NCBI GenBank assembly: GCA_005223085.1 | Contig: NJBP01000029.1 | Span: 1-26,278, forward strand | From: Candidatus Aerophobetes bacterium Ae_b3b | GTDB taxonomy: Bacteria > Aerophobota > Aerophobia > Aerophobales > AE-B3A | Reading direction: 5' to 3' | DNA: 26,278 bases | Shown here: positions 343 through 16,350 of the stretch, piece by piece | Layout: each line of letters opens with the position of its first letter | Numbering within the stretch: the first letter of the stretch is position 1 | Program-made: the position numbers and the translations under genes | The notes under the pieces: generated by a model | Seen by the model: only the letters and a program-made list of their open reading frames with translations | Databases searched by the model: none | What the model was told of the DNA's origin: nothing

Positions 343-1338
343 TCAACTTTGGCTCCAGGAAAGAATGCTCGTCCTCAGAATCCCAGATGCTTGAGTGGCG
401 TCTCCTTCTTCTATTATCTTTTCTATCCTCTGATAATCAATCCTATTCAGAAGCTCATAGAGACCCTTGATCCAGGCGATGCTTTCTTCCACTGCTCTCA
501 CGCCATCCTCCCGATAGGGGAATATATCCAGGGTATGCCATCCTTTATAGCCAGTCCTTTTCAACCAGTAAAGTAGCTCAAGGTACTGCGGAAGGTGAAC
601 CGAGCCAACCATCATATCGTCATCCCAGGTGGCATAATTGTCATTGAAGTGAAGGTAAAAAAGCTTCTTGCTTCTAGAGAGGAGAGCAATGGATTCAGCC
701 GGATTCTCTCCGGCGGCCAAGGCGTGACCCACATCCACCAGAACTCCGACGTTGTTCCTATTGACCTCTTTAGCCAAAAGAAGAGCTTTACCCGCCGTCC
801 CTACGAAAATGTGCGTCCTCGGCTCTTTAATTTTGTACTCAAGGCAGACCTTTACCTCGGGTCGATAATCGGCACATTCTCTAGTTGCCTCTACTAGCCT
901 ATCCCAGGCTTCCACATAATTAGCCTGGAATAAATAATCGTATCCATCTTGACCAAACCAGAGATCTATAGCATCACAATCGAGTTCAATGGCCCAATCC
1001 ATGGAGGCCTTCACATCTCCTATTGCCTCCTTCCGTATCTTTTCCTCTCTGGAGGTAAATCCCCCCTTTCCCCACTTACCTCTAGCCCACATATCAGGCG
1101 TCACCATACAGATCTTAAGACCGACGTCCTCCACCACCTTTTTTATTTCTCTAATGTTATTATCGCTTAGGTGCCAGGTCCCTACCAATTCTATTCCCGA
1201 TAAGCTTTTAACCTTGCCAGCCCTTTTAATCATCTCTACGGGAGTTCTTTTTACACCGCTGTAACCTGATAATACAAATCTATCTGCACAGTCACCGAAT
1301 GGTGGCAGGCAGGAGCCAAACAAAATATCTTTCTCCAT
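343..1338 (-). CDS. Sugar isomerase/epimerase, xylose-isomerase-like TIM barrel (paralog 1)
   Basis: This 331-residue protein belongs to the AP-endonuclease-2/xylose-isomerase-like TIM-barrel superfamily and probably interconverts an aldose and a ketose, or epimerises a ketose, in the cytoplasm. The expected metal ligands are visible: E167 in CLEYK, D202 in VDVGH, H230 in YLHFND and D271 in [10 protein letters not shown]. Their spacing resembles that of Pseudomonas-type L-rhamnose isomerase and ketose 3-epimerases. It is clearly paralogous to the protein at 7307-8296, sharing the LVGTWH, TSR, GYKG/KYNG and PYRED blocks. The ATG follows a strong AGGAGG site. It is separated from the RLP gene by a 173-bp spacer holding a palindromic repeat. 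The substrate cannot be told from sequence; the neighbouring rhamnulokinase-type kinase favours a deoxyhexose or related sugar. Confidence 0.85.
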
Positions 1339-1511: not shown

Positions 1512-2849
1512 TTAGCTGTTGGTCTTCTCTGGCTTAGGATGATATTGAGGGCCGGCTCGCAGCCACAGAGTCTCAGGACGCTGGATAGTCCCCCACTTCT
1601 CTAAAGCCGCTTTCAACTCTGGCTTATTCTTTGCCGCTTGCTCCAGGGGAAGTTCATCCATAGTAGCTTCAATGGCCTGTTGCCAGGCCCTGGCCCCGGC
1701 TGTATAACCCATAGGATGACCTAACATACCGCCTCCGGCAGGAACCACAATATCGCAGCCATATTCTCTTACCAGAATAGGAGTCAGCCCGGGATACATC
1801 CCCGCTGCCGGCATAGGCCAGGTTCTCTTTATATGATAGAAAGGAGCAAGTTTTACCTGAGCGGTGCGGATTCCCTCCTCCAGAGAAACCATGGGAATGG
1901 TTGACCAATATGTTGGAGTGAGCATTAAATCGGCTCCGCAGAGCCGGCACATCCTGGCCATCACTGGCCAGCTTATTCTGGGAGTCATCGAGATCATATG
2001 AGAAGGATGAAGAAGAATAGGTACGTTAATTTCTGGATCCTCAGCTAGCACTCTTAATACCGAGAGTCCTGCTGAATAAGCGAGTAGAAGACCGTTTGCT
2101 CCTAATTTTATGGCACGCCTGGCCTTATCCAATACCCTATTTACCTCATCGGTAATGCTGACAAAGTAAATTACCTCCTGGTGAGTTTTATTCTTAGCCC
2201 GGTTTAAAGCATCTAAAACGGCTTTGAGTCGCGGCTCAAATTTTGAGTTATAAACCTCGCTGATCATCTCATCGTCCTTTACCATATCCACTCCACCCAG
2301 AGCTGTTTTATAAACCTGCTCTGCCGTTTGTTCTGGCGTCATTCCCATCTTAGGCTTAATGATATGAAGCGATAGGGGTCTTTTGGGGATCCCCAATAGC
2401 TTTCTAATCCCGCTTACCCCAAACTTCGGTCCCTTAAAGGTCTTAACTAAATCCTCAGGAAAGAATACGTCTAGAAGTCTCATCCGGGGAGAATAGGCAA
2501 AACAATTGCCTGAGATGGAAAGGAGAATCATAGGAATGTTGACCTGCCAGGCATCGATAGAAAAGGCAAGCTGTATTACTGCTTTCTTCACATTTTTTTC
2601 TGAAGGGACGGGATAATAACCGACCATCTTGCCGGAAAGACGTTCTCTTACTTCCTCAGAGTCTTCCTCCACCTTCTCCCAGGTTCCGGTTGATCCCTCC
2701 AGGGCCATACTTTGAATCAAGCCAAAGTGATCGAGAAATTCCTCCCCCGGAACCCCATCTTCCACATAATAGGTGGCCACTATATGCCTGGACAGATTTA
2801 TTCCATCCAGAGTCTGATTAAAAATCAAAGGATCGTAATACCTTTCCAT
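1512..2849 (-). CDS. RuBisCO-like protein (form IV RLP)
   Basis: This 445-residue protein has the RuBisCO large-chain fold but cannot be a normal CO2-fixing enzyme. Retained, in spinach numbering: E60 and T65 (STGTW, here E51/T56), N123 (SGN, N115), K175 and K177 (KPK, 165/167), the carbamylated lysine and metal ligands K201/D203/E204 (GGVDMVKDDE, here K191/D193/E194) and the C-terminal phosphate-binding GGG (372-374, GGGMLGHPMG). Lost or changed: the HxHRAxH segment reads HPSHMIS (281-287), loop 6 with K334 is replaced by TPTYWST (311-317), and SGG-379 reads AGM. Keeping the enolising core while losing carboxylation residues is typical of RLPs that enolise, isomerise or decarboxylate sugar phosphates (MtnW and the apionate-pathway enzymes are known examples). 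The ATG follows AAGGAGG. It lies 11 bp after the E1 beta gene, in an operon with a sugar kinase, so its substrate is probably a ketose phosphate. Confidence 0.93.
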   Translation of the reverse strand: MERYYDPLIFNQTLDGINLSRHIVATYYVEDGVPGEEFLDHFGLIQSMALEGSTGTWEKVEEDSEEVRERLSGKMVGYYPVPSEKNVKKAVIQLAFSIDAWQVNIPMILLSISGNCFAYSPRMRLLDVFFPEDLVKTFKGPKFGVSGIRKLLGIPKRPLSLHIIKPKMGMTPEQTAEQVYKTALGGVDMVKDDEMISEVYNSKFEPRLKAVLDALNRAKNKTHQEVIYFVSITDEVNRVLDKARRAIKLGANGLLLAYSAGLSVLRVLAEDPEINVPILLHPSHMISMTPRISWPVMARMCRLCGADLMLTPTYWSTIPMVSLEEGIRTAQVKLAPFYHIKRTWPMPAAGMYPGLTPILVREYGCDIVVPAGGGMLGHPMGYTAGARAWQQAIEATMDELPLEQAAKNKPELKAALEKWGTIQRPETLWLRAGPQYHPKPEKTNS

Positions 2850-2860
2850 TATTAGCCTCC

Positions 2861-3871
2861 TTATCCACCCATAACTTCTCTAACTGCTCTTATTACATCG
2901 GCCTCGCCTGGCACCCAATAGTTTTCCATAACCGGAGCAAAGGGAACCGGCGTATCCGGAGCACATACCCTTTTAAGAGGTGCATCTAGATAATCAAAGG
3001 CCTCACTGGAGATAAAAGCCGCCATCTCCGCTCCCCATCCGCCAGTCAGATTATCCTCATGAACAATGACTGCATGGTTGGTCTTCCGGACAGATTTTAA
3101 AATAGTATCCTTATCTAAAGGAATCAACGTCCTGGGGTCTATAATTTCAACGCTTATTCCTTCATCTTTTAGTTTTTCCGCCGCCGAGACCACCGTGTAA
3201 ACCATCCTTAAGGTTGCGATTATGGTTACATGGCTGCCTCTTCTTTTGATATCAGCTACGCCAAAGGGGATCAGATACTCCTCCTGGGGAACTTCCGCCC
3301 GAGCATCGACGTTCTCTCTTCTTCCTTTAGCCCCATAGAGAAGCTTGTGTTCGAAAAACATTACCGGATTATCATCTCTTATAGCAGTCTTTAGAAGTCC
3401 TTTGGCATCATAGGCATTAGAAGGACAGACAACTTTAAGTCCAGGGACGTGAATAAAATAAGATTCAACCGATTGGGCATGTTGAGCTCCCCTACCTGAG
3501 GCTCCCACTGGAATTCGCATAACCATAGGAACCTTTAACTTTCCTGCCGACATGTACCGGAGTTTAGCTGCGTTATTTATAAGCTGATCCATAGCCAGGA
3601 AAATAAAATCTCCGTATTCCACATCAGCTATGGGTCGCATACCCATAAGAGCTGCCCCTACAGCAACTCCAGCTATACCGAGTTCGGAAATAGGAGTATC
3701 GAGGATTCGTAGATGGCCAAATTCCTCTGACAATCCTAAGCTAACGGTGAAAGCACCTCCCCATCCTCCTTTGATACCTATATCCTCACCAATACAGAAA
3801 ACGGTGGAGTCGCGCCTCATCTCCTCTCTTATTGCTTCCCTCAAAGCCTCAGCTACAGTTAATCTCCTCAT
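2861..3871 (-). CDS. 2-oxoacid/acetoin dehydrogenase E1 component, beta subunit
   Basis: This 336-residue protein is the beta subunit of a ThDP-dependent alpha2beta2 E1 dehydrogenase (pyruvate, branched-chain 2-oxoacid or acetoin type). The N-terminal half is a transketolase pyrimidine-binding domain with the conserved ThDP glutamate in CIGEDIG; the C-terminal half is the transketolase C domain, ending in PVPFAPVMENYWVPGEADV. I chose the ATG at 3871, which follows AGGAAAAGAG and begins MRRLTVAEALREAI as in homologues. The open frame runs 25 codons further upstream into the E1 alpha gene, but those residues are not family sequence. It sits 16 bp after the alpha gene. No E2 acyltransferase or E3 gene is in the window, so the complex must borrow these or the pair acts alone. 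Substrate is unassigned. Confidence 0.93.
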   Translation of the reverse strand: MRRLTVAEALREAIREEMRRDSTVFCIGEDIGIKGGWGGAFTVSLGLSEEFGHLRILDTPISELGIAGVAVGAALMGMRPIADVEYGDFIFLAMDQLINNAAKLRYMSAGKLKVPMVMRIPVGASGRGAQHAQSVESYFIHVPGLKVVCPSNAYDAKGLLKTAIRDDNPVMFFEHKLLYGAKGRRENVDARAEVPQEEYLIPFGVADIKRRGSHVTIIATLRMVYTVVSAAEKLKDEGISVEIIDPRTLIPLDKDTILKSVRKTNHAVIVHEDNLTGGWGAEMAAFISSEAFDYLDAPLKRVCAPDTPVPFAPVMENYWVPGEADVIRAVREVMGG

Positions 3872-3887
3872 ACTCTTTTCCTGGTGG

Positions 3888-4871
3888 TTAGGCAAATACA
3901 TCCTTAAAAACATCTTCCGGCTTGGGAGAGGGACTCTTTTGAGCAAATTCTATGGCCTCATCAATCCGAGCCTTCACCTCATTTTCTATTCCTTTACCCT
4001 TTTCCTCGGTTAAAATGCCCATCTTGATCAGGTTCTTATGCATCCTTGAAATTGGATCTTTTGCCAGCCAGATCCCTTCCTCTTTTTTATCCCTGTATTG
4101 TCCCGGATCGGAGCGAGAGTGACCACCGCGTCGATAGGTTTTGCATTCAATCAAAGTTGGCCCTTCTCCTTTTCTTGCCCTCTCTATAGCTTCTTTTGCC
4201 GCCTTGTATACAGATATCACATCATTCCCATCTACTACTATCCCTGGTATCCCGTAAGAGGAAGCTCGCTCGGCAATATCCTTTAATTTCATTACTTTGC
4301 TAACATGAGTGGAGGCTCCATACAAATTATTCTCACAAACATAGATGAGAGGCAAATCCCAGATACTACCCATATTTATAGCCTCATGAAAGGCCCCCTC
4401 ATTGGAGGCTCCATCTCCAAAGAAGGAAACGGCCACCCGATCCAGCCTTTTCATCTTAAACGCCAGTGCCATACCGGTAGCCACTGGAATTCCTCCTCCC
4501 ACTATCGCTATAGCCGGAACCATCCCTACTTCAATGTCTCCCATATGCATGCTGCCACCTTTTCCTTTGCAGCAACCAGTTGTTTTGGCAAAAAGCTCTG
4601 CCATTATCGATTTTACAGGGACTCCTTTGGCGATGGCGTGACCGTGGGGTCGGTGGGTGCTGGTAATCACATCCTCTTTTCTCAGATTGGCACACACTCC
4701 CACTGCCACTGCCTCCTGTCCCTGGTATAGATGGATCGTACCGGGCATCTCACCACTGAGAAACAATCGGTGGACCCTATCCTCAAAATTTCTGATCAAT
4801 ATCATTTTCCGGTACATTTTGATTAACTTATCTCCTGGTATTCCCATTTCATTCTCTTTTAGCTTTCCCAT
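3888..4871 (-). CDS. 2-oxoacid/acetoin dehydrogenase E1 component, alpha subunit
   Basis: This is the 327-residue alpha subunit partner of the adjacent beta subunit. It carries the ThDP/Mg motif GDG at 152-154 with NN at 181-182, the THRPHGH block (73-79) that lines the active-site channel, and the C-terminal loop RRGGHSRSDPGQYR (247-260), which in the family carries the regulatory serines. Heterotetrameric E1 enzymes attack the carbonyl of a 2-oxoacid or acyloin and transfer the acyl unit to lipoyl-E2. An AcuC-like gene 4 bp upstream favours an acetoin-type assignment, but AcuC-like proteins are widespread. The ATG at 4871 lies after AGGGGATAGGGG; a second ATG eight codons in, behind AAAGAG, is also possible. 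Coupling with the beta gene is tight. Confidence 0.93.
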   Translation of the reverse strand: MGKLKENEMGIPGDKLIKMYRKMILIRNFEDRVHRLFLSGEMPGTIHLYQGQEAVAVGVCANLRKEDVITSTHRPHGHAIAKGVPVKSIMAELFAKTTGCCKGKGGSMHMGDIEVGMVPAIAIVGGGIPVATGMALAFKMKRLDRVAVSFFGDGASNEGAFHEAINMGSIWDLPLIYVCENNLYGASTHVSKVMKLKDIAERASSYGIPGIVVDGNDVISVYKAAKEAIERARKGEGPTLIECKTYRRGGHSRSDPGQYRDKKEEGIWLAKDPISRMHKNLIKMGILTEEKGKGIENEVKARIDEAIEFAQKSPSPKPEDVFKDVFA

Positions 4872-4875
4872 TTTT

Positions 4876-5721
4876 CTATTTTACCCCTATCCCCTGGAGG
4901 AATTGATAAACACAGAGGGGAAGGTCACTGCTGTAGCCTCCTTCCAGGATAGCAAAGCAAGGTCTACCCAAATCTTTTATAGATCTGCCAATATCATAAT
5001 AGGTTTTGACCTCCAGTTCCAGACTGAGAAGCCTATCTCCCTTGTATCCATCAAACCCAGCCGAGACCCCGATTAAGGCCGGATCAAATGTTTCAACCTT
5101 CTCCAGACCTTCTGAGAAAATCTGAAGATACCTTTCCTCTCCCGTCCCAGGTGAGAGAGGATAGTTAAGACAATTCTTTTGAGAAGCTTCGCCGGTCCCG
5201 GGATAGGCAGGATATTGATGTAAGGAAAGATAAGTAACTCGGCGGTGGCCCAGGAAAATATCCTCGGTTCCATTCCCATGATGCCCATCAAAATCGATAA
5301 TAGCTACTCTCTCAACCTTCTCTAAAGCCTTGATCACAGCTATGGCCATATTGTTAACGTAACAGAATCCGCCGAGATAATCTTTTCCGGCATGATGGCC
5401 TGGAGGCCTTAATAAGGAAAAACTTGGCTCTTCCTCCAAAGTCTTCTTCATTGCCTCAACAGCCCCACCTACCGAGACAATAGCATAATCATAGATGCGA
5501 TCAATATTGGGAGTATCCGCATCAAAAAATTGATTCTCTTTTACCTTCTTCAGAAAAGATCTGGTGTGAACTAACAGAAGATCATCCCCACTGCAGACTT
5601 GAGCCTGCTGAAAAGAAAATCCTTTTTCCTTTAGATAATCGTAGGTCATCTTCACTCTTTCTGGTGATTCCGGATGACCCTGGGCCTGGTATTCCAGGCA
5701 CATTTCAGAAAAAAATATCAT
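4876..5721 (-). CDS. Histone deacetylase superfamily hydrolase, AcuC/acetylpolyamine-deacetylase-like
   Basis: This 281-residue zinc hydrolase of the arginase/HDAC fold removes acetyl groups from acyl-lysine, acetylpolyamine or another N-acyl substrate. Seen in order: GHPESPERV near the N terminus, RPPGHHA with the catalytic His pair 109-110, FCYVNN, IDFDGHHGNGT with zinc ligands D145 and H147, SAGFD with ligand D224, and EGGY with transition-state tyrosine Y263. All catalytic residues are present. Bacterial AcuC proteins often accompany acetoin dehydrogenase or acetyl-CoA synthetase genes, which fits the E1 genes next door; it may control acetylation of an enzyme of this pathway or act on an acetylated sugar or amine. 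A 77-bp copy of its 5' end lies at 15021-15097. Confidence 0.92.
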   Translation of the reverse strand: MIFFSEMCLEYQAQGHPESPERVKMTYDYLKEKGFSFQQAQVCSGDDLLLVHTRSFLKKVKENQFFDADTPNIDRIYDYAIVSVGGAVEAMKKTLEEEPSFSLLRPPGHHAGKDYLGGFCYVNNMAIAVIKALEKVERVAIIDFDGHHGNGTEDIFLGHRRVTYLSLHQYPAYPGTGEASQKNCLNYPLSPGTGEERYLQIFSEGLEKVETFDPALIGVSAGFDGYKGDRLLSLELEVKTYYDIGRSIKDLGRPCFAILEGGYSSDLPLCVYQFLQGIGVK

Positions 5722-5753
5722 TTCTCTTCTTTATATGCAAATTCGAAACTTGC

Positions 5754-7268
5754 TCAAATCTGAGGTAAATTTTGTGTGAGTAAGGAGGAGGTTGCAATAT
5801 CCACAAATTTTTCAAAGGTTTCATCCCAGCGTTTCTTCTGTTTTAAGTTTGGCTCAAAAGTATCTACATCAAAGGAGTTTCCTATAACTTCCCTGCAGTC
5901 CTTGGAATTAGCAATTGCCTTATCTGCCATGGCCTGGACGAGAATATTTCCTATAGCAGTTGCCTCTACGGGTCCAGCTACCACCGGTTTCTGCAAACAG
6001 TCAGCCGTCATCTGAGATAAAAGCCGATTTTTGGAACCGCCGCCAACGATATTTAATCCCTTAACAGATTTACCCTTTATTTCACTCAGCATATTGAAAA
6101 CGCGCCTATAAACTAATGCCAATCCTTCAAGAGCAATACGGGCAATTTCCCCTTTAGTTTCAGGTATTTCTTGACCTGTTTTTTCACAGAAATTGATAAT
6201 TGCCTCTGACATATTAATAGGATTATAAAAAGACATATCATCAGGATTAATAACAGCCTTAAATGGTTTTGCTTTAGAAGCCATTTCGGTGATCTCATCA
6301 TAGCTATAGCAATCTCCGTTTTTCTCCCAATCTCTTTTTAAGCGTTGGATAAGCCAGAGACCCATGATATTTTTGAGAAAGCGAACAGACCGATTCAGAC
6401 CACCCTCATTAGTAAAATTATACAAATATGATTGTTCAGTGATTATTGGTCTTTTTTCGATGGATCCCATAACTGACCAAGTGCCAGAACTACAACAGGC
6501 CCAATCTTTTTCAACCATGGGAACAGCGAAAATTGCACTGCCGGTATCGTGAGTCAAAGGAGCTATAATTTTAGCGGACTTTATGCCAGTTTCATCTTTT
6601 ACATCATTTAAAAGCTCACCGATAACTGTTCCTGGGTCAATAACCTCCGGAGCTATGGTAAAGGGAATTTCAAAGCTATCAAAGATATCCTTAGACCACT
6701 GGTATTTATTGTTATCATACAACTGAGATCCGCTAGCTACTGAAAATTCAGCTTTCTTAATACCTGTAAGAAAATAATTAAAAATGTCAGCCATAAAGAG
6801 AAAAATTGCCGCTGAGTCCAGAGCAGCAGAGTTCATCAAACGGAGAGCCAACATTTGAAAGGAAGTGTTAAAGGGAAGAAACTGAATTCCCGTAATTTGG
6901 TAAATTTTCCTCCTGGGCATTCTTCTAAACCCTTCTTCAAACATATTATTATTTTTAGGATCGCGATAGGCATAAGGAAATCCCAGTAGTTCACCATTTT
7001 TATCCAGAAGCCCAAAGTCCACTGCCCAGTTGTCTATCCCCAGTCCGTCTAAGTGATCTGTATATTGCTTAGCACAAATAGACATAGTCTTTTTAATCTC
7101 TCTATATAAATAAAGAACATCCCAATAATAGTGGCCATGTACCTTCACCATACTGTTTGGATAGCGGTAAATCTGCTGTATAGTCAAATGATTACCATCA
7201 AACTTGCCAAGCATCCCTCGCCCACTCTCTGCTCCCTGATCAATAGCTAAGTATGTTTTTACCGCCAT
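5754..7268 (-). CDS. rhaB: Rhamnulokinase-type FGGY carbohydrate kinase
   Basis: This 504-residue kinase of the FGGY family most closely resembles rhamnulokinase, which makes L-rhamnulose 1-phosphate from L-rhamnulose and ATP. Seen: the N-terminal phosphate motif AIDQGAESGRGM, NWAVDFGLLD, the sugar-site block AYRDP, the ATPase-fold segment CCSSGTWSVMG, the C-terminal NIVGGGSKNRLLSQMTAD nucleotide-binding motif and GPVEATAIGN. Length matches the family. The ATG follows AGAGGAAAGG. No RhaD aldolase or RhaA-type isomerase is nearby; instead there are two TIM-barrel isomerases and an RLP. The natural substrate could therefore be another 6-deoxyketose or ketopentose phosphorylated at C1. The family is certain, the substrate is inferred. 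Confidence 0.9.
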   Translation of the reverse strand: MAVKTYLAIDQGAESGRGMLGKFDGNHLTIQQIYRYPNSMVKVHGHYYWDVLYLYREIKKTMSICAKQYTDHLDGLGIDNWAVDFGLLDKNGELLGFPYAYRDPKNNNMFEEGFRRMPRRKIYQITGIQFLPFNTSFQMLALRLMNSAALDSAAIFLFMADIFNYFLTGIKKAEFSVASGSQLYDNNKYQWSKDIFDSFEIPFTIAPEVIDPGTVIGELLNDVKDETGIKSAKIIAPLTHDTGSAIFAVPMVEKDWACCSSGTWSVMGSIEKRPIITEQSYLYNFTNEGGLNRSVRFLKNIMGLWLIQRLKRDWEKNGDCYSYDEITEMASKAKPFKAVINPDDMSFYNPINMSEAIINFCEKTGQEIPETKGEIARIALEGLALVYRRVFNMLSEIKGKSVKGLNIVGGGSKNRLLSQMTADCLQKPVVAGPVEATAIGNILVQAMADKAIANSKDCREVIGNSFDVDTFEPNLKQKKRWDETFEKFVDIATSSLLTQNLPQI

Positions 7269-7306
7269 TTAAACCTTTCCTCTAAAAATTAAGAGTTTCC
7301 TTATAT

Positions 7307-8296
7307 TTAAGGCAGCATCATCTGTCGTATGAGAGAGGTAACGGCAACATGATTCTCTTTCTCCATCTTCTGGGCAATGGTCTCATATCCGATTTTGTCC
7401 AGAACACGCCTTAAGCCTAGAATCCAAGCAAAACTCTCCCGTACTACCTGAACACTATCTTCTCGATACGGATTGATATCCAGCGAGTAATAACCATTAT
7501 ACTTCATTTTCTCCAGCCAGTACAACAACTCAAGGTACTCGATGGTATGCACTGAGGCAGGGTACATATCATCGTCCCAAAAACGGTAGTTGTCGTTAAG
7601 GTGAAGGTGAAAAAGCTTACCAGCACGGTGAGCAAGTACGGCAGACATAGCCATATTCTCGTAAGCATACAGGGCATGTCCTACATCGAGGACCATTCCC
7701 AGATCGGAACTATTCACCTCATTGATCAAAAGGAGAGTTTTGCCAATAGTAGCAACAAATGAATATTTGCGAGGTTCCTTTACTTTTGGCTCGATTCCCA
7801 CTTTGACCTTTTTTACCTTTTTTTGATATTCCATTACTTCAGATAAAGTCTCGATTAAGTTATCCCACACTTCATCATAACTAGCACTAAATGGATAGTC
7901 AAAACCATCTTGTGCTGGCCATATATTAATTAGAGGACAGTCAAGCTCAGCTGCCCAATCAATGTTCTTTTTAATCTCGGTAACAGCCTCTTTTCTAAGT
8001 TTGGAATCACGGGAAGTAAGAGCTCCTCGACTCCATTTAGCGGTACTCCAGATATCGACAACAATATCAATAATCTTTATCCCAGTATATCTGGATAGCT
8101 GCTTGACCTCATCAATATTCTCATTATTAACATGCCAGGTACCGACCAGTTCCACTCCTTCCAGACCTTCAATTGTTTTAGCAATGGCGAACATCTCTGG
8201 TACCCCACGTTTTTCTCCATATCCATCGGGTACAAAACGGTCACCCCCTGCACTAAAAGTCGGTAGAGCAGCGGCTAATTTAATTTTTTCTGACAA
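7307..8296 (-). CDS. Sugar isomerase/epimerase, xylose-isomerase-like TIM barrel (paralog 2)
   Basis: This 329-residue paralog of the product of 343-1338 keeps the same metal-site residues: E169 (GIEPK), D204 (LDVGH), H232 (LHLND) and D273 (SLDINPYRED). It should be a cytoplasmic divalent-metal aldose-ketose isomerase or epimerase. The start is TTG, preceded by a good GGAGG site with 8-nt spacing; no ATG fits better. It lies directly upstream of the kinase gene, consistent with supplying the ketose that the kinase phosphorylates, in the manner of rhamnose isomerase followed by rhamnulokinase. The two paralogs may act on successive or epimeric sugars, or form one heteromeric enzyme. Confidence 0.85.
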   Translation of the reverse strand: MSEKIKLAAALPTFSAGGDRFVPDGYGEKRGVPEMFAIAKTIEGLEGVELVGTWHVNNENIDEVKQLSRYTGIKIIDIVVDIWSTAKWSRGALTSRDSKLRKEAVTEIKKNIDWAAELDCPLINIWPAQDGFDYPFSASYDEVWDNLIETLSEVMEYQKKVKKVKVGIEPKVKEPRKYSFVATIGKTLLLINEVNSSDLGMVLDVGHALYAYENMAMSAVLAHRAGKLFHLHLNDNYRFWDDDMYPASVHTIEYLELLYWLEKMKYNGYYSLDINPYREDSVQVVRESFAWILGLRRVLDKIGYETIAQKMEKENHVAVTSLIRQMMLP

Positions 8297-8322: not shown

Positions 8323-9363
8323 TTATTCATTTTCTAATTTGATTGGATAAACTCCATACTTCTGGATGCTATCAAGCATTACTTGATACAACTCCGGCTT
8401 TACTCCAGCATGAAGGGAATTACTGGAGGATATAATATAACCTCCTCCTGGCGCAGCTTTTTTGATGCACTCTTTTACCTCTTTCTTCACTTCTTGAGGT
8501 GTTCCATTCTGAAGAGTAGTAACGCAATTGATATTTCCTTTAATGGCTATCCTATCACCGTATTTCTGTTTTATAAAACCGATGTCCATTCCTGCCAGAG
8601 GATCTATTGGATCAAGACAATCCACCCCTGTTTCAATAATCATATCTATAATTGGCATAAGATTACCATCACTGTGTTTTATGACATAAAATCCAAGATT
8701 TTTGTAAGCCTTAACTACGCGCTTCATTTCAGGATAAAGAAATTGGCGAAACATCTCAGGGGAAACGAAGGGGCCCTTATTATCAGCAAAATCATCACCT
8801 ATACCTATGATTTCAGCACCATGTTTTTTTGCCAGGCGAGCAAGCTCAATATTGTAATCCACTGAAAAACCCACCATCTCACGAACAAGCTCTGGGCAAA
8901 GAATAAAATCCCTCAGTAGTGCTTCCAAACCTCTAAGGTCTCGAGGAAAAGAGAGAACATCATGAAGATTAACAAGAATTGCCTTATTTCCCTTAAAGCG
9001 CTTGACAGCGGTATCTATTTTCTTAAATCGTAAGTTAGATTCCAAAGGAGGAGGTTCATAGCTCTTCATATCGGAAAGAGACTTAATAGGATGGACGATG
9101 GCTACTGAGTATTTATCCGGACCAGTGAGGTGACGGGTAATCCCGAATTCGTCAATAAAAGTATCCTCATCGATACATTTTATTTTTTTATAAACAGGAG
9201 CTGTGCAAACAACATCATGTTCTGTCTTTTCCACAAAATCAAAGTAATCACCACCCGGGACAAAGGCTTCTATAAGATTTGGAGCAACTTTCCATTCAAA
9301 ATTTGGTACAATATCGGGTTCTTTCCCCTCCAGGACAGAAAAAACTCTTTCTACAGATGTCGT
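8323..9363 (-). CDS. Uroporphyrinogen-decarboxylase-family methyltransferase, probable ACG start
   Basis: The 346-residue product belongs to the UroD/MtaA superfamily. Beside a corrinoid protein it most likely transfers a methyl group to or from the cobamide rather than decarboxylating a porphyrin. Family blocks seen: SVERVFSVLEGKEPDIVP near the N terminus, NLHDVLSFPRDLRG, VIKHSDGNLMPIID, LDPIDPLAGMDI, GNINCVTTLQNGTPQEV and PGGGYIISSSNSL. The MtaA-type zinc Cys motifs are not obvious. Family homology extends some 43 residues upstream of the first GTG (9234), back to a point where the expected initiator is ACG (9361-9363), reading ACG ACA TCT GTA. It follows the stop of the mttB-like gene by one base (TAATACG, where TAATATG would be usual). 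Either ACG initiates weakly or the gene has lost its start codon. Confidence 0.8.
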   Translation of the reverse strand, partial: TTSVERVFSVLEGKEPDIVPNFEWKVAPNLIEAFVPGGDYFDFVEKTEHDVVCTAPVYKKIKCIDEDTFIDEFGITRHLTGPDKYSVAIVHPIKSLSDMKSYEPPPLESNLRFKKIDTAVKRFKGNKAILVNLHDVLSFPRDLRGLEALLRDFILCPELVREMVGFSVDYNIELARLAKKHGAEIIGIGDDFADNKGPFVSPEMFRQFLYPEMKRVVKAYKNLGFYVIKHSDGNLMPIIDMIIETGVDCLDPIDPLAGMDIGFIKQKYGDRIAIKGNINCVTTLQNGTPQEVKKEVKECIKKAAPGGGYIISSSNSLHAGVKPELYQVMLDSIQKYGVYPIKLENE

Positions 9364-9364
9364 A

Positions 9365-10816
9365 TTAAAGCATCCCTTTGTCTTTATAATATTTTCTAGC
9401 CTCTTTAAGTATTCTATCTATATCTTTATCTTGCCCTGCAGCAAGTGGTGTTGGTTCATGTGTTGCTAAAATTTCCTCCATCCGTTTTCTGGCATAATCA
9501 ATGGCAGATTTTTTACCATGGGAAAAAAAGCTTCCGCATACCCAAAACCTGCATTAATTGCATCCTCAGAATATGAAAGAGGCGAAGCTGCTTCCATATT
9601 ACCAATCAAGATATGTTCCCGGAATCGGCCCAACTTCTTTTATTAGTTCAATGGCCATAGATTCGCTATCAACTACAATGCCCTCAATGTGTCTACCAAT
9701 AATGGCAGCTAAATCATCATCAAGAATTGCCATGAGCGGATTATATGCAAGTTCAGCACTTACTCCGCCATGCAAAAGTATACTATTTGCACCTGAATAG
9801 GCTGAGGTCATTGCGCAGTGGGTTTTTTCATATCCTGATTGGAGATCAAATAATTTAGAATTTGGGAATCCAGCAGCACAATTATTGGTAGGAATTCTAT
9901 AAAACTGCGTCCAGATTTGATTAAATGCTGCCTCATGCAAACTAATTCCCAGTGAACCAAAGGCAGGACTTCCACTTCTCATATTCATAGGATATTCAAT
10001 ATCATTAGCAATTATGCCCACTCCTGGTTTGATGAGCTGGAAGAACACCAGAGCAGCGAGAAGTTCAGCATTATTACTAATGGTAGCACCAGCAATTGTT
10101 ACCGGTGCGGTTCCCCCCATAACTCCACCTCCTGCAATATATATGGGAAAAAGAGCTTCCGCATACCCAAAACCTGCATTAATTGCATCCTCAGAATATG
10201 AAAGAGGCGAAGCTGCTTCCATATTACCAAGAAGTTGTGCTCCACATGCTTGTGCCATTTGTATTTCCCAAATATAAGTATCTACACTCTGAGCCCCTCT
10301 TGAAACTTTAGAAGAATATCGAAGCCTCATGGCGCAGGAAGTTGGACAAAGCATTACAGGTTCCACACCCTCTACTTCAAAATAAGGTGTATAGGAAGGG
10401 AAATAATCCAAGTTTTCCAAAGCATCTGAAATCAAAATGGCTTCATTATTCTCCTTCATTGTGGCCACTCTGGTTTCTCCAGTTTCAGGATCTGATATTC
10501 TTGCTCCCGCTGAGCACATGAAATATAATGTATTACCTCCAAATCTTAAATTATTTTTAAGGTCTCTTGCCTTTACTAAAAAGCTACTCGGGGTTCTCCT
10601 GATACATTCTTCAACCAGATAACTGGGAAACCTTACCCGATTATTTTCAAAATCTACTATACATTCATTTTTTTTAAACATTCTTAAAGCTCTTTGGCTT
10701 TCAAACCTAACCCCTGTTTCCTCAAGTACATCAAGTGTTCCTCTATGGATTGCTTCCACTTGAGTATCGGTTAAGATTTTAAGAGGTTCTATATTTCTGA
10801 TATAGCCTCTTCGCAT
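9365..10816 (-). pseudogene. MttB-family (COG5598) corrinoid methyltransferase, interrupted
   Basis: The gene encodes a non-pyrrolysine member of the trimethylamine methyltransferase family, which moves a methyl group from a quaternary amine or other donor to a cognate corrinoid protein. Residues 1-405 are good family sequence, starting MRRGYIRNIEPLKILT and including GGGVMGGTAPVTIAG and VGPIPGTYLDW. The frame then meets TAA, and two more stops follow in 28 codons. That stretch is an 88-bp copy of the gene's own 10143-10230 segment. In the same frame, normal C-terminal sequence resumes at 9517 (GKKSAIDYARKRMEEILATH) and ends KDKGML at 9365. The total of 484 codons is the usual family length. 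The corrinoid gene ends 2 bp upstream and the UroD-like gene starts 1 bp downstream. As read, the product lacks about 80 residues. Confidence 0.88.
9518..9605 (-). repeat. 88-bp misplaced copy of an internal mttB-like segment
   Basis: This stretch is identical to 10143-10230 except at one base and has the same orientation. At the source it encodes GNMEAASPLSYSE through AEALFPI. Here it is read in another phase and brings in stop codons TAA, TGA and TAA. Family sequence on both sides is in one frame, so the copy seems to replace, not split, about 28 missing codons. Confidence 0.92.
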
Positions 10817-10818
10817 CT

Positions 10819-11475
10819 CTATCCCCCCGAATCTAAGCCTAAAAGTTTGTTAACTAAAGTTACTGCTAGCGGTGCAGTTGGTGCATACCCATCTGCTCCT
10901 ATGCTATCTGCAAATTCCTGGTTTATTGGCGCTCCTCCGACTATGATTTTCACCTTATCTCGCATGCCTTTGGAAATAAGATCCTTTATTATATTTTTTT
11001 GCTCATAAGCAGTTGTTGTAAGCAGAGCCGACATGGCAAGAATATCAGAGTTATATTTCTTAACAGCTTCGACGAAAACACTGCTTTTTACATTAACTCC
11101 TAAATCAATTACCTCGTAGCTTGAAGACAAAAGTAATGTTGCAACCATCTGCTTACCTATACTATGTATGTCTCCAAAAACAGTTCCAATGACTACTTTC
11201 CCTCTAGTATGAGTCTTTTTGCCCTGTCTTTTAATTTCAGCCCGGATAACTGGCAAAGCTCTTTGTAAAACCTTGGAAGCTAGCACAAGATCAGGAAGAA
11301 AAAGATCCCCTTTAGCAAATCCTTCTCCGATTTCTCTTATCGCCTTAGTTAAAGCTTCAGCACTTTGAAGAGGATCTATTCCTTCTTCAATAGATTTTTT
11401 TGCCAGATCTTCAGCATCCTCAAAATTTAAATCCAGGACTACTCTGTATAGACCATCTAAAATATCTGAACTCAT
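10819..11475 (-). CDS. Corrinoid (methyltransferase cognate) protein, MtbC/MtgC-like
   Basis: This 218-residue protein carries the methyl group between methyltransferases on a bound cobamide. An N-terminal helical cap (about 1-90, GIDPLQSAEALTKAI, FAKGDLFLPDLVLAS) is followed by a Rossmann-like B12-binding domain with the cobalt-ligating motif D102-I-H104-S-I-G107, the SALLTTT segment (SxL) and the GGAP loop that contact the nucleotide tail. All three binding elements are intact. The gene ends 2 bp before the mttB-like start, whose ribosome site GGGGGA overlaps its end, so the two are translationally coupled. Together with the UroD-like gene they form a three-part corrinoid methyl-transfer module. 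An activase (RamA-like) gene is not in the window. Confidence 0.93.
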   Translation of the reverse strand: MSSDILDGLYRVVLDLNFEDAEDLAKKSIEEGIDPLQSAEALTKAIREIGEGFAKGDLFLPDLVLASKVLQRALPVIRAEIKRQGKKTHTRGKVVIGTVFGDIHSIGKQMVATLLLSSSYEVIDLGVNVKSSVFVEAVKKYNSDILAMSALLTTTAYEQKNIIKDLISKGMRDKVKIIVGGAPINQEFADSIGADGYAPTAPLAVTLVNKLLGLDSGG

Positions 11476-11560: not shown

Positions 11561-12952
11561 CTAATCCTTCCACTCCTTATAGACTATACCCAGTGCCTTC
11601 ATTGCATCATACTGTCCGTTCCAGAGTTTCTTCTGAGTTTCCCGATCCAGATTATCGGTAATTTCGTTCCAGGCTTTTGCTGCATCATCCAGTGCTTTCT
11701 TGGCATCTTTGGTTCCGGCTAGAACCTGGGTTATCTCATAGGTAAGGGCATTCATGTACTCGGCTGTTCCGGGAATTAACAGATCTGGAAATCCCTTATC
11801 CAGATTGGCATTAATGGCATCCAGATAGTCACCGGCTGTAGGCCAGAGAGCCCGGAATACAGGAGAGGTGTAGTGAGAGAGACGGTAGGGATCCAGGGAA
11901 GTGTTAGGATCCATCACTATTTGTAGACTGATATCGGGTCTGGTAATGAAGTGCAGGAAAGTTATAGCCGCCCCTTTCTTTTTAGAATCCTTAGGAATAG
12001 TCAGGTCCCATCCACCGGCGATCATAGGACGATAATAGATTTCTCCATCCCATTGCGCTCCGGGGACTAAGGCATAATTCATCTTACCCACAACTTTGGA
12101 CTCCTCAGGATTTTCGGCTGCTTTTCCCACACAGGTCCACTGCTTTCCCATAGCCGCATCTCCCTTGACCAGAGCTGTTCTCACTTCCATATAAGACCAG
12201 CTCAGAGAGCCAGGAGGCATATAGGGAAGACACTCAACCATATTCTTGAGAGCCATCATTCCCGATTTGGTATTAACCAGGGGATTCATATCCTCATCAA
12301 AATAAACTCCCCCGTAAGAAGCAAAACGATCCAGGAACCACCAATACATCCGGTCTTTTTTTAAATATTCAGTACAGCCATATTCAATTTCTCCGTCATC
12401 ATCCCAGTCCCATCCGTTGAGAAAAGAAGCAGTATCCCGATATTCTTTCCAGGTTTTGGGAACCTCTATTCCTAGCTTGTCAAATATGTCCTTGCGGTAA
12501 TATAATAGGTGCACATCCCCATCCCAGGGCATCCCATACCAGACACCCAGCCAGGAACAGTAAAGGTCACGGAATTTGGGAACCAGGTCATCCAGCTTAA
12601 AATCCAGACCCTCTTTATCGGCCAGTGGTTTCAAAGGAGCAAGATAGGGTGAGGTGTCAGCCAACCACTGAGGGTTCATCTGAACCACATCATAGGCCCC
12701 GGTTCCTCCGATAAACTCAGTCATGTATTTCTCATACATCACATCGGCGGTCATTTCAATAACTTTCACTTTAATTCCAGTCTCTTTAAGAAACTGATCC
12801 TGGAAGTTGTAAACAGCGGTGGCATGAGGAACAGCGTGAACAGCTACCGTGATAGTTTCTCCGGCATAGGGGGACTGAGCAAAGACTCCGGCTGTCCCGG
12901 CTAAAATCAGCACTGCCATAAGACAGAGAACAATTTTTATCCTACCTCTCAT
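11561..12952 (-). CDS. Sugar ABC transporter, extracellular solute-binding protein (family 1)
   Basis: This 463-residue exported protein captures the sugar and delivers it to the adjacent permeases. The first 25 residues are a signal peptide (RGRIKIVLCLMAVLILAGTA, then VFA before QSPYAG); no lipobox cysteine is seen, so it is probably a free or otherwise anchored periplasmic protein. The mature part matches the family-1 (maltose/multiple-sugar type) fold: ETGIKVKVIEM early, YYRKDIFDKLGI, PKTWKEY, the tryptophan-rich GWDWDDDGEIEYG and the late AGGWDLTIPKDSKKK-GAAITFLHF block. The ATG follows GGGAGG. It lies downstream of both permease genes, an uncommon order. The ligand cannot be named; the many Trp and Asp residues suit a carbohydrate. 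Confidence 0.93.
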   Translation of the reverse strand: MRGRIKIVLCLMAVLILAGTAGVFAQSPYAGETITVAVHAVPHATAVYNFQDQFLKETGIKVKVIEMTADVMYEKYMTEFIGGTGAYDVVQMNPQWLADTSPYLAPLKPLADKEGLDFKLDDLVPKFRDLYCSWLGVWYGMPWDGDVHLLYYRKDIFDKLGIEVPKTWKEYRDTASFLNGWDWDDDGEIEYGCTEYLKKDRMYWWFLDRFASYGGVYFDEDMNPLVNTKSGMMALKNMVECLPYMPPGSLSWSYMEVRTALVKGDAAMGKQWTCVGKAAENPEESKVVGKMNYALVPGAQWDGEIYYRPMIAGGWDLTIPKDSKKKGAAITFLHFITRPDISLQIVMDPNTSLDPYRLSHYTSPVFRALWPTAGDYLDAINANLDKGFPDLLIPGTAEYMNALTYEITQVLAGTKDAKKALDDAAKAWNEITDNLDRETQKKLWNGQYDAMKALGIVYKEWKD

Positions 12953-13061
12953 CTTTTTCCTCCCTTATTTGAAGATTTTCAGGGCAAATTAATGAGATTA
13001 TTCCTGCTCCCACCTCCTTTCCTCTCTCTTTGCCCTTGATTCATCGTATAGTCTAAAAAAG

Positions 13062-13916
13062 CTAGCCCTTTACTGCCCCAAAGGCTAGCCCTTTTACCAG
13101 ATATCGCTGGATAAATACCACAATTACGAGAATAGGAATGATGGTAATAAGTGATAAAGCCGACATCTCTCCCCAGAGAATCTTGGTAGGCGTTCTGAAT
13201 TGAGATAGTTGCAGAGTAACTGTTTTAGCTGCTTCTCTAGTTAGAATCAAAGCAAACAAAAACTCATTCCAGGAAAAAATGAAGCAAAAAAGTCCGGTTA
13301 CTACAATTCCAGGAGCGATTACGGGAATAACCACTCTGAGGACAGCACCAATCCGGGAACATCCGTCTATAACAGCTGCCTCCTCAATTTCAGCAGGAAA
13401 TGATTCAAAAAAACCAATAAGAAGCCATACAGCAAAAGCAATATTAAAAGTACAATATACCAAAATCAGGCCCAAATGTTTGTCTAAGAGAGTTATCTGC
13501 CTATCAAAAAGCTGAAAACCTCTAAAGAGAAGAAAAAAAGGTATGATAGTGGCAACCGGAGGCAACATCCGTTGAGATAAAATCCAGAAAGAAAGATTCT
13601 CACCTCCCACCCGGAAACGGGCAATACCGTAAGCAGCCGGGATACTCACTCCGAGAACTAATAATAAATTAAGTGAGGCAATAATGAGACTATTTCGAAG
13701 ATAATCCAGGCCAGCCGTGGAAATAATGTAAGTATAGTTGGCTATAGTTGGATTTTTGGGAATCCACACTGGAGGATAAGTATAGTATTCCCCGACACTT
13801 TTGAACGATGTGGAGACAGTCCAGGCAATAGGGAAAACGGCCAGACTAACAGCCATAACCAAAATCACATATACAGCAATATTTTCTATTTTTAATAATG
13901 CGCGCCTGGAAAACAC
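13062..13916 (-). CDS. Sugar ABC transporter permease, MalG-type (CUT1)
   Basis: This inner-membrane permease has about six membrane segments; the first is near residues 14-33 (VYVILVMAVSLAVFPIAWTV). The cytoplasmic EAA loop that docks on the ATPase reads EEAAVIDGCSRIGAVLRVVIP at about 178-198, a clear CUT1 motif. A TTG at 13925 would overlap the upstream gene, but GGGAGG touches it directly. The GTG at 13916 lies 9 bases beyond the same GGGAGG and is the better start, giving 284 residues. No ATP-binding subunit is encoded nearby, so a shared MsmK/UgpC-like ATPase elsewhere is implied. Confidence 0.92.
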   Translation of the reverse strand: MFSRRALLKIENIAVYVILVMAVSLAVFPIAWTVSTSFKSVGEYYTYPPVWIPKNPTIANYTYIISTAGLDYLRNSLIIASLNLLLVLGVSIPAAYGIARFRVGGENLSFWILSQRMLPPVATIIPFFLLFRGFQLFDRQITLLDKHLGLILVYCTFNIAFAVWLLIGFFESFPAEIEEAAVIDGCSRIGAVLRVVIPVIAPGIVVTGLFCFIFSWNEFLFALILTREAAKTVTLQLSQFRTPTKILWGEMSALSLITIIPILVIVVFIQRYLVKGLAFGAVKG

Positions 13917-13917
13917 C

Positions 13918-14799
13918 TCACCCAACCTCCCTTCTTCGCAAGATTCTCAAGAATCCCAGAGCTATTACTACCACAATAGCCAGCAGCAGATAGGAAAGAG
14001 AAGCTGCGTATCCGACTCTAAAAAAACGAAATCCCACCAGGTAAACATAATAACTAACTGTTTCTGTAGAGCTCCCCGGACCACCTGACGTTAAAATAAA
14101 AACCGTATCAAAGAGCTTTATTACATCTACCAGCCTAATCAGAAGAGCAGCAATAATGGAAAGTTTAAGCATAGGTAGGGTAATATGCCAAAATACCTGA
14201 GGCCGGGAAGCTCCATCTACTAGTGCTGATTCATGCGGTTCTATCGGAATAGACTGAAGGCCAGCCAAGAGAATCATCATAAAAAGAGGAGTCCATTGCC
14301 AGGCATCTACCAGAACAACAGAAAAGGGTGCCAGGTGCGGACTACCCAGCCAGCTTGGACCAGTGCCAAACCCTAACAACCGCAGAATAGCATTAATAGC
14401 CCCGTATTTCTCATGATAGAGCATCCTCCACATCAGAGCGGCTACCACCGGGGAAATCATCACTGGCATTACTAAGAGAGTAGTTAAAATTCTTTTACCT
14501 ACCAGCTTTCTGCTTAGCAAAAGAGCCAGTCCCAGGCCCAATAAGAATTCCAGAAGGACAGCACTTACTCCAATAATGCCCGTGGTTATCAAAGAACGAT
14601 GAAATCTATGATCACTGAAAAGAGCTCTGGCATAATTACTAAACCCAGCAAACCTCCAGCCTAGCGGTCGACGCAAATCCCAATGGAAAAAACTAAGAGT
14701 CAAGGAATAAACCAGGGGAAATATAGTAATAACAATTAATAAAATAACTGCTGGTAAAACAAAAGAATAACGTTTTAGTTTTTTTCTGCCACTTTTCAT
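13918..14799 (-). CDS. Sugar ABC transporter permease, MalF/UgpA-type (CUT1)
   Basis: This 293-residue permease is first in the operon. Membrane segments are visible at about 11-34, 72-96, 105-125, 157-180, 212-232 and 262-284. The EAA loop reads HESALVDGASRPQVFWHITLP at about 189-209, typical of CUT1 importers of oligosaccharides and glycerol phosphate. The ribosome site before the ATG is weak (TTCTTTAAG). Its stop almost touches the start of the second permease, so the two are translationally coupled and should form the heterodimeric channel. Expression should come from the consensus promoter 100 bp upstream. Confidence 0.92.
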   Translation of the reverse strand: MKSGRKKLKRYSFVLPAVILLIVITIFPLVYSLTLSFFHWDLRRPLGWRFAGFSNYARALFSDHRFHRSLITTGIIGVSAVLLEFLLGLGLALLLSRKLVGKRILTTLLVMPVMISPVVAALMWRMLYHEKYGAINAILRLLGFGTGPSWLGSPHLAPFSVVLVDAWQWTPLFMMILLAGLQSIPIEPHESALVDGASRPQVFWHITLPMLKLSIIAALLIRLVDVIKLFDTVFILTSGGPGSSTETVSYYVYLVGFRFFRVGYAASLSYLLLAIVVVIALGFLRILRRREVG

Positions 14800-15353: not shown

Positions 15354-15424
15354 GGTAGCCGCAGGCTTCAGCCTGCGCAAAATCCTAGCCTGCGTTTATA
15401 CGCACCCTAAAGGGTGCGGCTACC
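15354..15424. repeat. 71-bp palindromic dispersed repeat, copy 2
   Basis: This is the partner of 1410-1480 with a single base difference and the same terminal and internal inverted repeats. Homology extends left to about 15308 (TCAGTGAACCCCG), but here an extra short palindrome, ATTGC-GAAGCGAA-GCAAT, is present before the TTGGTAGTCGCC block. It lies just upstream of the MntA/HepT pair and supplies a spurious in-frame GTG start at 15414. Confidence 0.85.
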
Positions 15425-15500
15425 CGCGCTGCTCTTTGCAGTCAACAACATGGAACGTCCTTCACTGAATATTTACGATAGAGAAAAGAGGCAAAGTCGA

Positions 15501-15935
15501 ATGCCAATAAGAAAAGAGTTGAAACGATACGATCTGCAGTTTGTCAGGGAAAAGCTTTCTCCCTTTTTCACAAAATCAAGGGTCATCTTAGCTTATCTAT
15601 TTGGTTCTCAAGTTAAAGGAGAAATTGGACCAATGAGCGACATAGATATAGCGGTCTTATGGAACAAAGACGAGAAAGAAAAACTAAAAAAGAGTCTTCT
15701 TTTGCAAAGTCAAATAAAAGAGAGGCTCTGTGCTGAATACATCGAGGTAGGATCTCTTAATGACCAGACTTTGAGTTTTTGTTACAATGTAATTAAAGAC
15801 GGCATCTGTATTTTCGGAAAAGAAAAGGATCGAGTAGAATACGAAACCTCTATCCTCAATGAATATTTGGACTTTTCATACTTAGCCGAGGAATATAATC
15901 GAGCCTTCAGCCAAGCCATACGCAAGGAAAAGTGA
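15501..15935 (+). CDS. mntA: MntA-like nucleotidyltransferase antitoxin
   Basis: This 144-residue minimal nucleotidyltransferase carries the canonical GSX10DXD active site: G35-S36, then ten residues, then D47-I-D49 (LFGSQVKGEIGPMSDIDIAV). MntA proteins neutralise their partner HepT by adding AMP to a tyrosine near its RNase site. The open frame extends back to 15414, but those codons lie inside the dispersed repeat; the ATG at 15501 has AGAGG nine bases upstream and starts at the family boundary. An ATG at 15450 is less well supported. It is followed after one base by the hepT start, a typical two-gene operon. Confidence 0.88.
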   Translation: MPIRKELKRYDLQFVREKLSPFFTKSRVILAYLFGSQVKGEIGPMSDIDIAVLWNKDEKEKLKKSLLLQSQIKERLCAEYIEVGSLNDQTLSFCYNVIKDGICIFGKEKDRVEYETSILNEYLDFSYLAEEYNRAFSQAIRKEK

Positions 15936-15936
15936 T

Positions 15937-16350
15937 TTGGTAAACAAAGAAGAAATCTTTCACCGTTTAAATGAGATAAAACAGGCTACTGATTATCTTA
16001 GAAAAATAAAACTTGGAGATCTGGATAACAGGGAGAAATTTCTTTTATCCCGCTATCATCTTCAGATAATTTTAGAGGCAATGTTCACTATAGGTAACCA
16101 GATCATTGCCAATAAGGTTTTTCGAAAGCCTGCTAGCTATAAAGATATCCTCACCGTCCTTTACGAAAATAAGATATTGAAAAAAGAACTATACTCTAGG
16201 CTAATTCCTCTTGTTGATTTGCGAAATCGGCTGGTTCATACCTACTGGAAAATTCCTAAAGAAGAACTAATAGAAATAGTGAGAAATGAACTAATATACT
16301 TTGAGAAATTCGTTAGAACTATATTGGAATGCTTAGACCACGAAGCGTAG
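15937..16350 (+). CDS. hepT: HepT-like RNase toxin (DUF86)
   Basis: This 137-residue all-helical protein has the HEPN signature RX4HXY at R96-NRLV-H101-T-Y103 (LRNRLVHTYW), which gives the RNase site and the tyrosine that MntA modifies. The start is TTG, one base after the mntA stop (TGATTTG), so translation is coupled. The pair can act in stress response, plasmid or island stability, or phage defence. Its place next to a dispersed repeat, between two unrelated operons, fits insertion of a mobile module. Confidence 0.9.
   Translation: MVNKEEIFHRLNEIKQATDYLRKIKLGDLDNREKFLLSRYHLQIILEAMFTIGNQIIANKVFRKPASYKDILTVLYENKILKKELYSRLIPLVDLRNRLVHTYWKIPKEELIEIVRNELIYFEKFVRTILECLDHEA

Follow-up and report, generated by a model that had tools for sequence, protein, structure and literature searches.

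A RuBisCO-like protein encoded with an acetoin-type E1 pair in Aerophobetes: a proposed route for deoxy-sugar cleavage

What does a RuBisCO-like protein (RLP) do in an operon that also encodes a sugar kinase, xylose-isomerase-like proteins and both subunits of a thiamine diphosphate (ThDP)-dependent E1? The question is raised by contig NJBP01000029.1 of Candidatus Aerophobetes bacterium Ae_b3b (26,278 nucleotides, hereafter the window; C10 among the contigs of a 2.04 Mb assembly that is 88.6% complete), and it matters beyond this contig, since a reaction has been assigned to only a few RLP clades, and those few have reshaped the ideas on the origin of RuBisCO. A preliminary description of the window had proposed that isomerase, kinase, RLP and E1 act in series, replacing the aldolase of a sugar pathway. 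Its core, an RLP feeding an acyloin-cleaving complex, is supported by the analysis given here, while the replacement of the aldolase does not stand as a rule. The reading that we favour is the catabolism of a deoxy sugar in which the RLP would shift the carbonyl of a ketose 1-phosphate and an E1/E2/E3 complex would cleave the resulting acyloin, and we give it a probability of about 0.55.

The genes that carry the argument lie where the preliminary description had placed them, with the addition of iso1, just beyond its coordinates 1512-8296:

343-1338, minus strand: iso1, a xylose-isomerase-like TIM barrel (PF01261, 105 bits; closest solved structure 3ktc)
1512-2849, minus strand: RLP, a proposed ketose-1-phosphate carbonyl-shifting isomerase (PF00016, 136 bits; PF02788; a clade of its own)
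2861 to about 3871, minus strand: E1 beta, ThDP-dependent, of the acetoin/2-oxoacid dehydrogenase type (PF02779, PF02780; NF006667, 378 bits, above the cut-off)
3888-4871, minus strand: E1 alpha, ThDP-dependent (PF00676, 313 bits; tree position)
5754-7268, minus strand: FGGY ketose kinase, rhamnulokinase/fuculokinase-like, the proposed former of the ketose 1-phosphate (TIGR02627, 446.8 bits against a cut-off of 527.95; structures 4c23 and 2cgj)
7307-8296, minus strand: iso2, a xylose-isomerase-like TIM barrel, a proposed sugar isomerase or epimerase (PF01261, 104 bits)

The reading frame of E1 beta extends to 3946 (an upstream TTG), and the internal ATG at about 3871 was taken from the translation as the likely start. 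All genes of the operon are on the minus strand, in the order UROD/MtaA-like gene, iso2, FGGY kinase, HDAC/AcuC-like gene, E1 alpha, E1 beta, RLP and iso1, and they are tightly packed, with gaps of 4-38 bases across 9234-1512. As the preliminary description had it, there is no aldolase gene in the operon, nor is there any within the window.

Is this neighbourhood peculiar to one contig? The scan of species genomes returned 31 members of the RLP clade, at 51-76% identity, together with two distant archaeal RLPs; no relatives were found on viral contigs. The hosts range over Aerophobetes and about nine other phyla, and comprise Hakubella (Actinomycetota), Armatimonadota, Omnitrophota, Latescibacterota, Spirochaetes, Planctomycetes, Kiritimatiellae, Chloroflexota and a 'Vermiphilus' metagenome-assembled genome. 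The paper on Hakubella (PMC7325909) counts M. thermoacetica as one of the close matches. Neighbours were counted within 10 kb wherever 4 kb or more flank the RLP gene on each side, as in 14 loci. Of these, 13 have E1 alpha and 13 E1 beta, 12 have a lipoyl E2 (recognised by its lipoyl, E3-binding and acyltransferase domains), 12 have an iso1-type isomerase and 11 have an FGGY kinase; almost all of these genes share the strand of the RLP. Even at a chance rate of 5% per locus for an E1 within 10 kb, which is generous, the binomial probability of 13 out of 14 is about 2e-16, a figure to be read with the interrelatedness of the loci in mind. In addition, the distances between RLPs correlate with those between E1 alpha subunits (r=0.68; 0 of 5000 permutations as high), and the E1 alpha subunits of RLP operons form a single clade (support 100/99). 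The gene linkage of the RLP with E1 and E2 is strong, and a functional linkage between them is in our view highly probable.

What, then, would the E1 do? E2 and E3 are absent from the window itself and are encoded elsewhere in the same genome, which has one E2 (contig C37), a strong E3 match (C29) and four genes of the gamma subunit type of pyruvate:ferredoxin oxidoreductase (POR). Because an E2 is found in most sister operons and both E2 and E3 in the host genome, the E1 could be completed to an acyl-CoA-forming complex, and the RLP very probably feeds a complex of the acetoin dehydrogenase type. The E1 alpha of the window is about 51% identical to its counterpart in an Enterococcus operon that also encodes E2, E3 and 2,3-butanediol dehydrogenase (i.e., an acetoin dehydrogenase), 51-52% identical to the E1s of glucitol phosphotransferase system (PTS) operons in Rhizobium and Priestia and about 48% identical to an E1 from a Clostridioides plasmid, where its gene neighbours those of glycoside hydrolases and of a regulator that binds sugars, but only 32-35% identical to a Bacillus pyruvate dehydrogenase (PDH) and a Rhizobium branched-chain 2-oxoacid dehydrogenase (BCKDH). 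In a tree with one PDH and one BCKDH, it stands apart from both (100/97), in a clade of its own beside the acetoin and sugar-operon E1s, a position compatible with the acetoin type assigned by the preliminary description. This suggests that acyloins derived from sugars may be the substrates of a group of E1/E2 complexes. The acetoin dehydrogenase complex (AcoA/AcoB/AcoC/AcoL) is similar in its E1 alpha and in the cleavage of an acyloin to acyl-CoA, as proposed here; it differs in that the RLP-linked E1s are a separate clade, the proposed substrate is a sugar phosphate and the window lacks E2 and E3. Among the sister and comparison loci (numbered with an L), acetoin-type E1/E2 genes lie in glucitol-PTS operons of Rhizobium and Priestia and beside GH43/cellulase genes on the Clostridioides plasmid (L145, L146 and L163); they would be further acyloin dehydrogenases linked to sugars.

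The E1 could also stand outside the pathway, with the RLP acting as a sugar-phosphate epimerase or isomerase and E1/E2 as a pyruvate or acetoin dehydrogenase for the end product. Downstream genes often gather in sugar operons, and the class II aldolases of four sister loci offer a possible onward route without the RLP. Nevertheless, such an arrangement seems quite unlikely. The host genome has three RLPs from three clades (on C10, C33 and C23), each adjoining its own E1 alpha/beta pair, although only one E2 was found; the E1 groups away from PDH; and, the POR-gamma-type genes being present, the host need not use an E1 for pyruvate. These three observations argue against an E1 that serves pyruvate. 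It also speaks against the arrangement that another RLP clade has another kind of ThDP enzyme, a split transketolase, as its partner. In the operons concerned, found in Shinella and several Chloroflexota (L141:491-5915; L110, L113, L115 and L118), the RLP is encoded with the N and C halves of the transketolase and with MtnA, and MtnK is present in two of them (L141 and L110). They are candidates for a pathway of 1-methylthio/1-deoxyketose cleavage and, since they pair the two kinds of protein independently, they support the idea of an RLP working with a C-C-cleaving ThDP enzyme. In the open-access library searched (subscription papers were outside the scope, as were two that mention 'rubisco-like' along with rhamnose and catabolism), no description was found of either pairing, nor of an RLP joined with transketolase and methylthioribulose, an FGGY kinase or a rhamnulokinase.

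The RLP itself belongs to form IV by its two Pfam domains, its structure matches and its substituted catalytic residues. In RuBisCO numbering, it keeps E60, T65, W66, N123, K175, K177, K201, D203, E204, H294, G381, G403 and G404 (in its own numbering, E51 for E60, T56/W57 for T65/W66, N115 for N123, K165 for K175, K167 for K177, K191 for K201 and H281 for H294), and the substituted positions are R295 (P282), H327 (L310), K334 (T317) and S379 (A348). The residue map bears out the preliminary description, according to which the metal site (K191, D193 and E194) and the phosphate-1 glycines are kept and the loop-6 lysine and the HxHRAxH arginine are lost; the second phosphate site (R295, H327) is lost as well. 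Among 23 aligned members of the clade, no variation is seen in the metal site or at H281, and K334, R295 and H327 are absent in nearly all of it. Judged by the mechanism of RuBisCO, this make-up would fit the binding of a mono-phosphate sugar and the formation of an enediolate without carboxylation.

Could the protein be an MtnW-type enolase in a variant methionine salvage, or even a CO2-fixing RuBisCO? The AlphaFold model (pLDDT 84.7) has the MtnW structures 2oek and 2zvi as its closest matches (TM 0.84/0.90 for 2oek), other RLPs and RuBisCOs following at lower rank, and the hidden Markov models also point to MtnW first. MtnW (2,3-diketo-5-methylthiopentyl-1-phosphate enolase) has in common with the RLP the fold, the carbamylated lysine, the metal ligands and the loss of K334 and R295. 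However, it is only 32% identical and lacks E60, N123 and K177, all kept in the RLP, whose score for TIGR03332 (243.8) is far under the cut-off (513.6). Furthermore, in a tree of 79 sequences the RLP clade has support 100/100 and lies outside MtnW, as sister to a group formed by MtnW, Shinella-type RLPs and a second Aerophobetes RLP type; the MtnW sequences, two in this tree, group with the Shinella-type RLPs. By this position the RLP is not MtnW, and the window has no genes of the mtnB/mtnX type. Neither of the two outcomes that the preliminary description had named as fatal to its pathway, a neighbourhood confined to this contig or an RLP firmly within the MtnW clade with methionine-salvage genes near its homologues, was thus encountered. 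As for RuBisCO, forms I-III were rejected given T317, P282 and L310 in place of K334, R295 and H327, and the loss of K334 and R295 means that there would be no carboxylation as in RuBisCO. Both functions are therefore very improbable. OiaX was rejected too (NF042437, 140.5 bits against a cut-off of 700; a separate clade): it and related RLPs of the apionate pathway likewise act in sugar catabolism beside a kinase, but OiaX keeps HR and the equivalent of K334, the partner is a four-carbon acid sugar kinase and no E1 was present in the loci examined. The RLP is also outside the Shinella-type clade, read as DeepYkr from its short N-terminus and MtnA neighbours in a tree whose sequences do not include the R. 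rubrum RLP.

How could these proteins be joined in a pathway? From their families and gene context, we infer the following steps for a sugar that is itself deduced. A xylose-isomerase-like enzyme would yield a ketose, which the rhamnulokinase-type kinase would phosphorylate at C1. With its carbamylated lysine and Mg2+, the RLP would deprotonate C3 to give an enediolate, like RuBisCO, and, with no carboxylation, the carbonyl would be moved from C2 towards C4, producing an acyloin sugar phosphate with an in-chain ketone. The model for this step is the DeepYkr RLP, a 1,3-isomerase that converts 5-methylthioribulose 1-phosphate into 1-methylthioxylulose 5-phosphate (PMC5893883). E1 alpha/beta would then add ThDP to the new carbonyl and cut the bond to the adjacent carbinol, the acyl unit passing to the lipoyl E2 and the lipoyl group being reoxidised by E3. 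In this way, a 6-deoxyhexulose 1-phosphate would give lactoyl-CoA, glyceraldehyde 3-phosphate and NADH, and a 5-deoxypentulose 1-phosphate acetyl-CoA and glyceraldehyde 3-phosphate. The aldol cleavage equilibrium lies strongly on the side of the ketose phosphate, at about 1e-4 (PMC6079011), and the reaction sets an aldehyde free; the advantage over an aldolase would be that the oxidative transfer of the acyl unit to CoA runs downhill and frees none. The 5'-methylthioadenosine (MTA)-isoprenoid shunt of R. rubrum and R. palustris, in which the DeepYkr RLP acts, resembles the proposed route in obtaining a ketose 1-phosphate from an isomerase step, in the 1,3 carbonyl shift (proposed here) to a 1-substituted ketose 5-phosphate and in its independence from oxygen. 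It differs, probably, in the RLP clade, and further in the use of MtnP/MtnA instead of an isomerase of the unphosphorylated sugar and an FGGY kinase, and in the next step, a cupin methylsulfurylase leading to 1-deoxyxylulose 5-phosphate (DXP) instead of an E1/E2 complex.

Which sugar would enter? The kinase, called rhamnulokinase-type in the preliminary description, proved to be rhamnulokinase/fuculokinase-like: the RhaB family (TIGR02627) is its best match by far, though under the cut-off, and it is about equally close to 4c23 (an L-fuculose kinase) and 2cgj (the E. coli L-rhamnulose kinase). Kinases 33-47% identical to it are encoded in 17 sister loci. The two aldose-ketose isomerases claimed for the operon are present as xylose-isomerase-like TIM barrels, with matches at the superfamily level only (iso1 91.5 and iso2 54 bits for TIGR02635, the Gram-positive-type L-rhamnose isomerase, whose cut-off is 531). 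Among the sister operons, L038 has a partial L-rhamnose isomerase RhaA, and L043 has RhaA and a GH78 rhamnosidase-like gene. Since rhamnulokinase-like kinases, RhaA and GH78 occur in these operons, L-rhamnose or a related 6-deoxyhexose is the leading candidate, and the odds that a 6-deoxyhexose is the substrate may be about even. The aldolase pathways of L-rhamnose and L-fucose (RhaA-RhaB-RhaD, FucI-FucK-FucA) also start with an isomerase and a ketose 1-kinase, but end with an aldolase and free lactaldehyde, in place of the RLP and E1/E2 proposed for the host genome and their acyl-CoA.

The candidate small genes (208-219 amino acids) of L036, L038 and L041, read at one point as PduL-like, were dropped: the first encodes a protein without Pfam match, the second a shortened RhaA and the third, judged from its translation only, an incomplete alcohol dehydrogenase-like protein. 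A gene for handling lactoyl-CoA was looked for in the operons, and none recurs, so that acetyl-CoA, which requires no further enzyme, fits better. This favours another version, the salvage of 5-deoxyribose or a related sugar, in which the RLP would turn a 5-deoxypentulose 1-phosphate into a DXP-like 1-deoxyketopentose 5-phosphate, to be split into acetyl-CoA and glyceraldehyde 3-phosphate. The product is of the type made by the DeepYkr RLP, and it agrees with the 1-deoxyketose chemistry of pyruvate and acetoin dehydrogenases: according to PMC3424233 and its ref. 39, both form 1-deoxyketoses and a mutant PDH forms DXP, the reverse of the acyloin reaction. Yet the kinases, RhaA and GH78 indicate 6-deoxyhexoses, and the sugar importers and glycosidases suggest an external sugar and not an internal by-product, which makes a 5-deoxypentose unlikely.

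The proposed cleavage of a 6-deoxyhexose by RLP and E1/E2 has further observations to its debit, besides the lack of a lactoyl-CoA gene. Two close relatives, L016 and L062, have a xylulokinase-like and not a rhamnulokinase-like kinase, and L019 and L035 have no E1 near the RLP. In a genome of the same family (L131), the RLP type of contig C23 keeps its dehydrogenases and kinase without an E1 beside it. Moreover, class II aldolases in four Chloroflexota operons (L036, L037, L038 and L046; in L038, directly after the kinase) give the kinase product another exit, and because of them the RLP route would there be an addition and not a replacement. The claim that it replaces the aldolase holds for the host genome, whose sole class II aldolase-family gene is probably an L-ribulose-5-phosphate epimerase, since it lies beside an AraB-like ribulokinase; no RhaD/FucA-like gene was seen in that genome, at its 88.6% completeness. 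In the Chloroflexi genome of L036, the RLP-E1-E2-kinase operon is directly followed (L036:11208-15999) by genes for a microcompartment shell protein, for a protein resembling CoA-acylating aldehyde dehydrogenases and for a FucA-like class II aldolase that carries an additional tail at its C-terminus.

Other features of the window are the following:

4876-5721, minus strand: histone deacetylase/AcuC-family deacetylase (PF00850, 227 bits)
8323-9234, minus strand: UROD/MtaA-family protein, the first gene of the tight run, 26 bases before iso2 (PF01208, 101 bits)
11561-14799, minus strand: sugar ABC transporter, with a binding protein (11561-12952) and permeases (13062-13925 and 13918-14799; PF01547, PF00528)

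The deacetylase gene, inside the operon and unmentioned in the preliminary description, has no tblastn match in the sister loci and is not conserved there, and UROD-family genes are also found near L019, L021, L027 and L043. Upstream of the operon (8323-11475) are encoded an MttB-family methyltransferase, a corrinoid protein and the MtaA/UROD-like protein, a set that may demethylate some substrate; the MttB-like protein scores 241 of 525, far under the trimethylamine equivalog cut-off. The transporter is a probable importer, which to judge by its position may belong to the pathway. At 15414-16350 there is a nucleotidyltransferase and HepT-like pair of the MNT/HepT toxin-antitoxin type.

Three further loci of the host genome deserve mention. 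The C33 locus (L058, G000:C33:34000-52000) has a second RLP type with an ABC sugar transporter, E1 alpha/beta, a 2-hydroxyacid dehydrogenase-like gene and two FGGY kinases, its RLP and E1 recurring in L099 and L112. In the C23 locus (L059, G000:C23:4000-22000), a third RLP type, with a degenerate last glycine motif, is accompanied by E1 alpha/beta, a bicupin, two zinc alcohol dehydrogenases and an FGGY kinase. The C22 locus (L061, G000:C22:8000-20000) lacks an RLP and encodes a fused E1 of 787 amino acids with an iso1 homologue (50%), an FGGY kinase, a cupin, a zinc alcohol dehydrogenase and a ribose-type ABC transporter (domain names from translations, except for the blast matches); it is a possible RLP-free version of the pathway.

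What would all this mean for RLPs? From its gene context, a whole clade would gain a specific role, that of an isomerase making acyloins for a ThDP/lipoyl complex. There is perhaps an even chance that this amounts to an undescribed, anaerobe-friendly 6-deoxyhexose route spread over some ten phyla, in which the RLP makes the acyloin and a dedicated complex of the acetoin dehydrogenase type cleaves it oxidatively into glyceraldehyde 3-phosphate and lactoyl-CoA (or acetyl-CoA), with no free lactaldehyde. If so, deoxy sugars would be split with no need of an aldolase and with no toxic aldehyde set free, their carbon being saved as a CoA ester; form IV RuBisCO would gain a new function; and the pairing of RLPs with ThDP enzymes, including the split-transketolase operons, would be a general theme. 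For metagenome annotation, genes of this kind labelled 'form IV RuBisCO' or 'pyruvate dehydrogenase E1' would then be no sign of CO2 fixation or of pyruvate oxidation.

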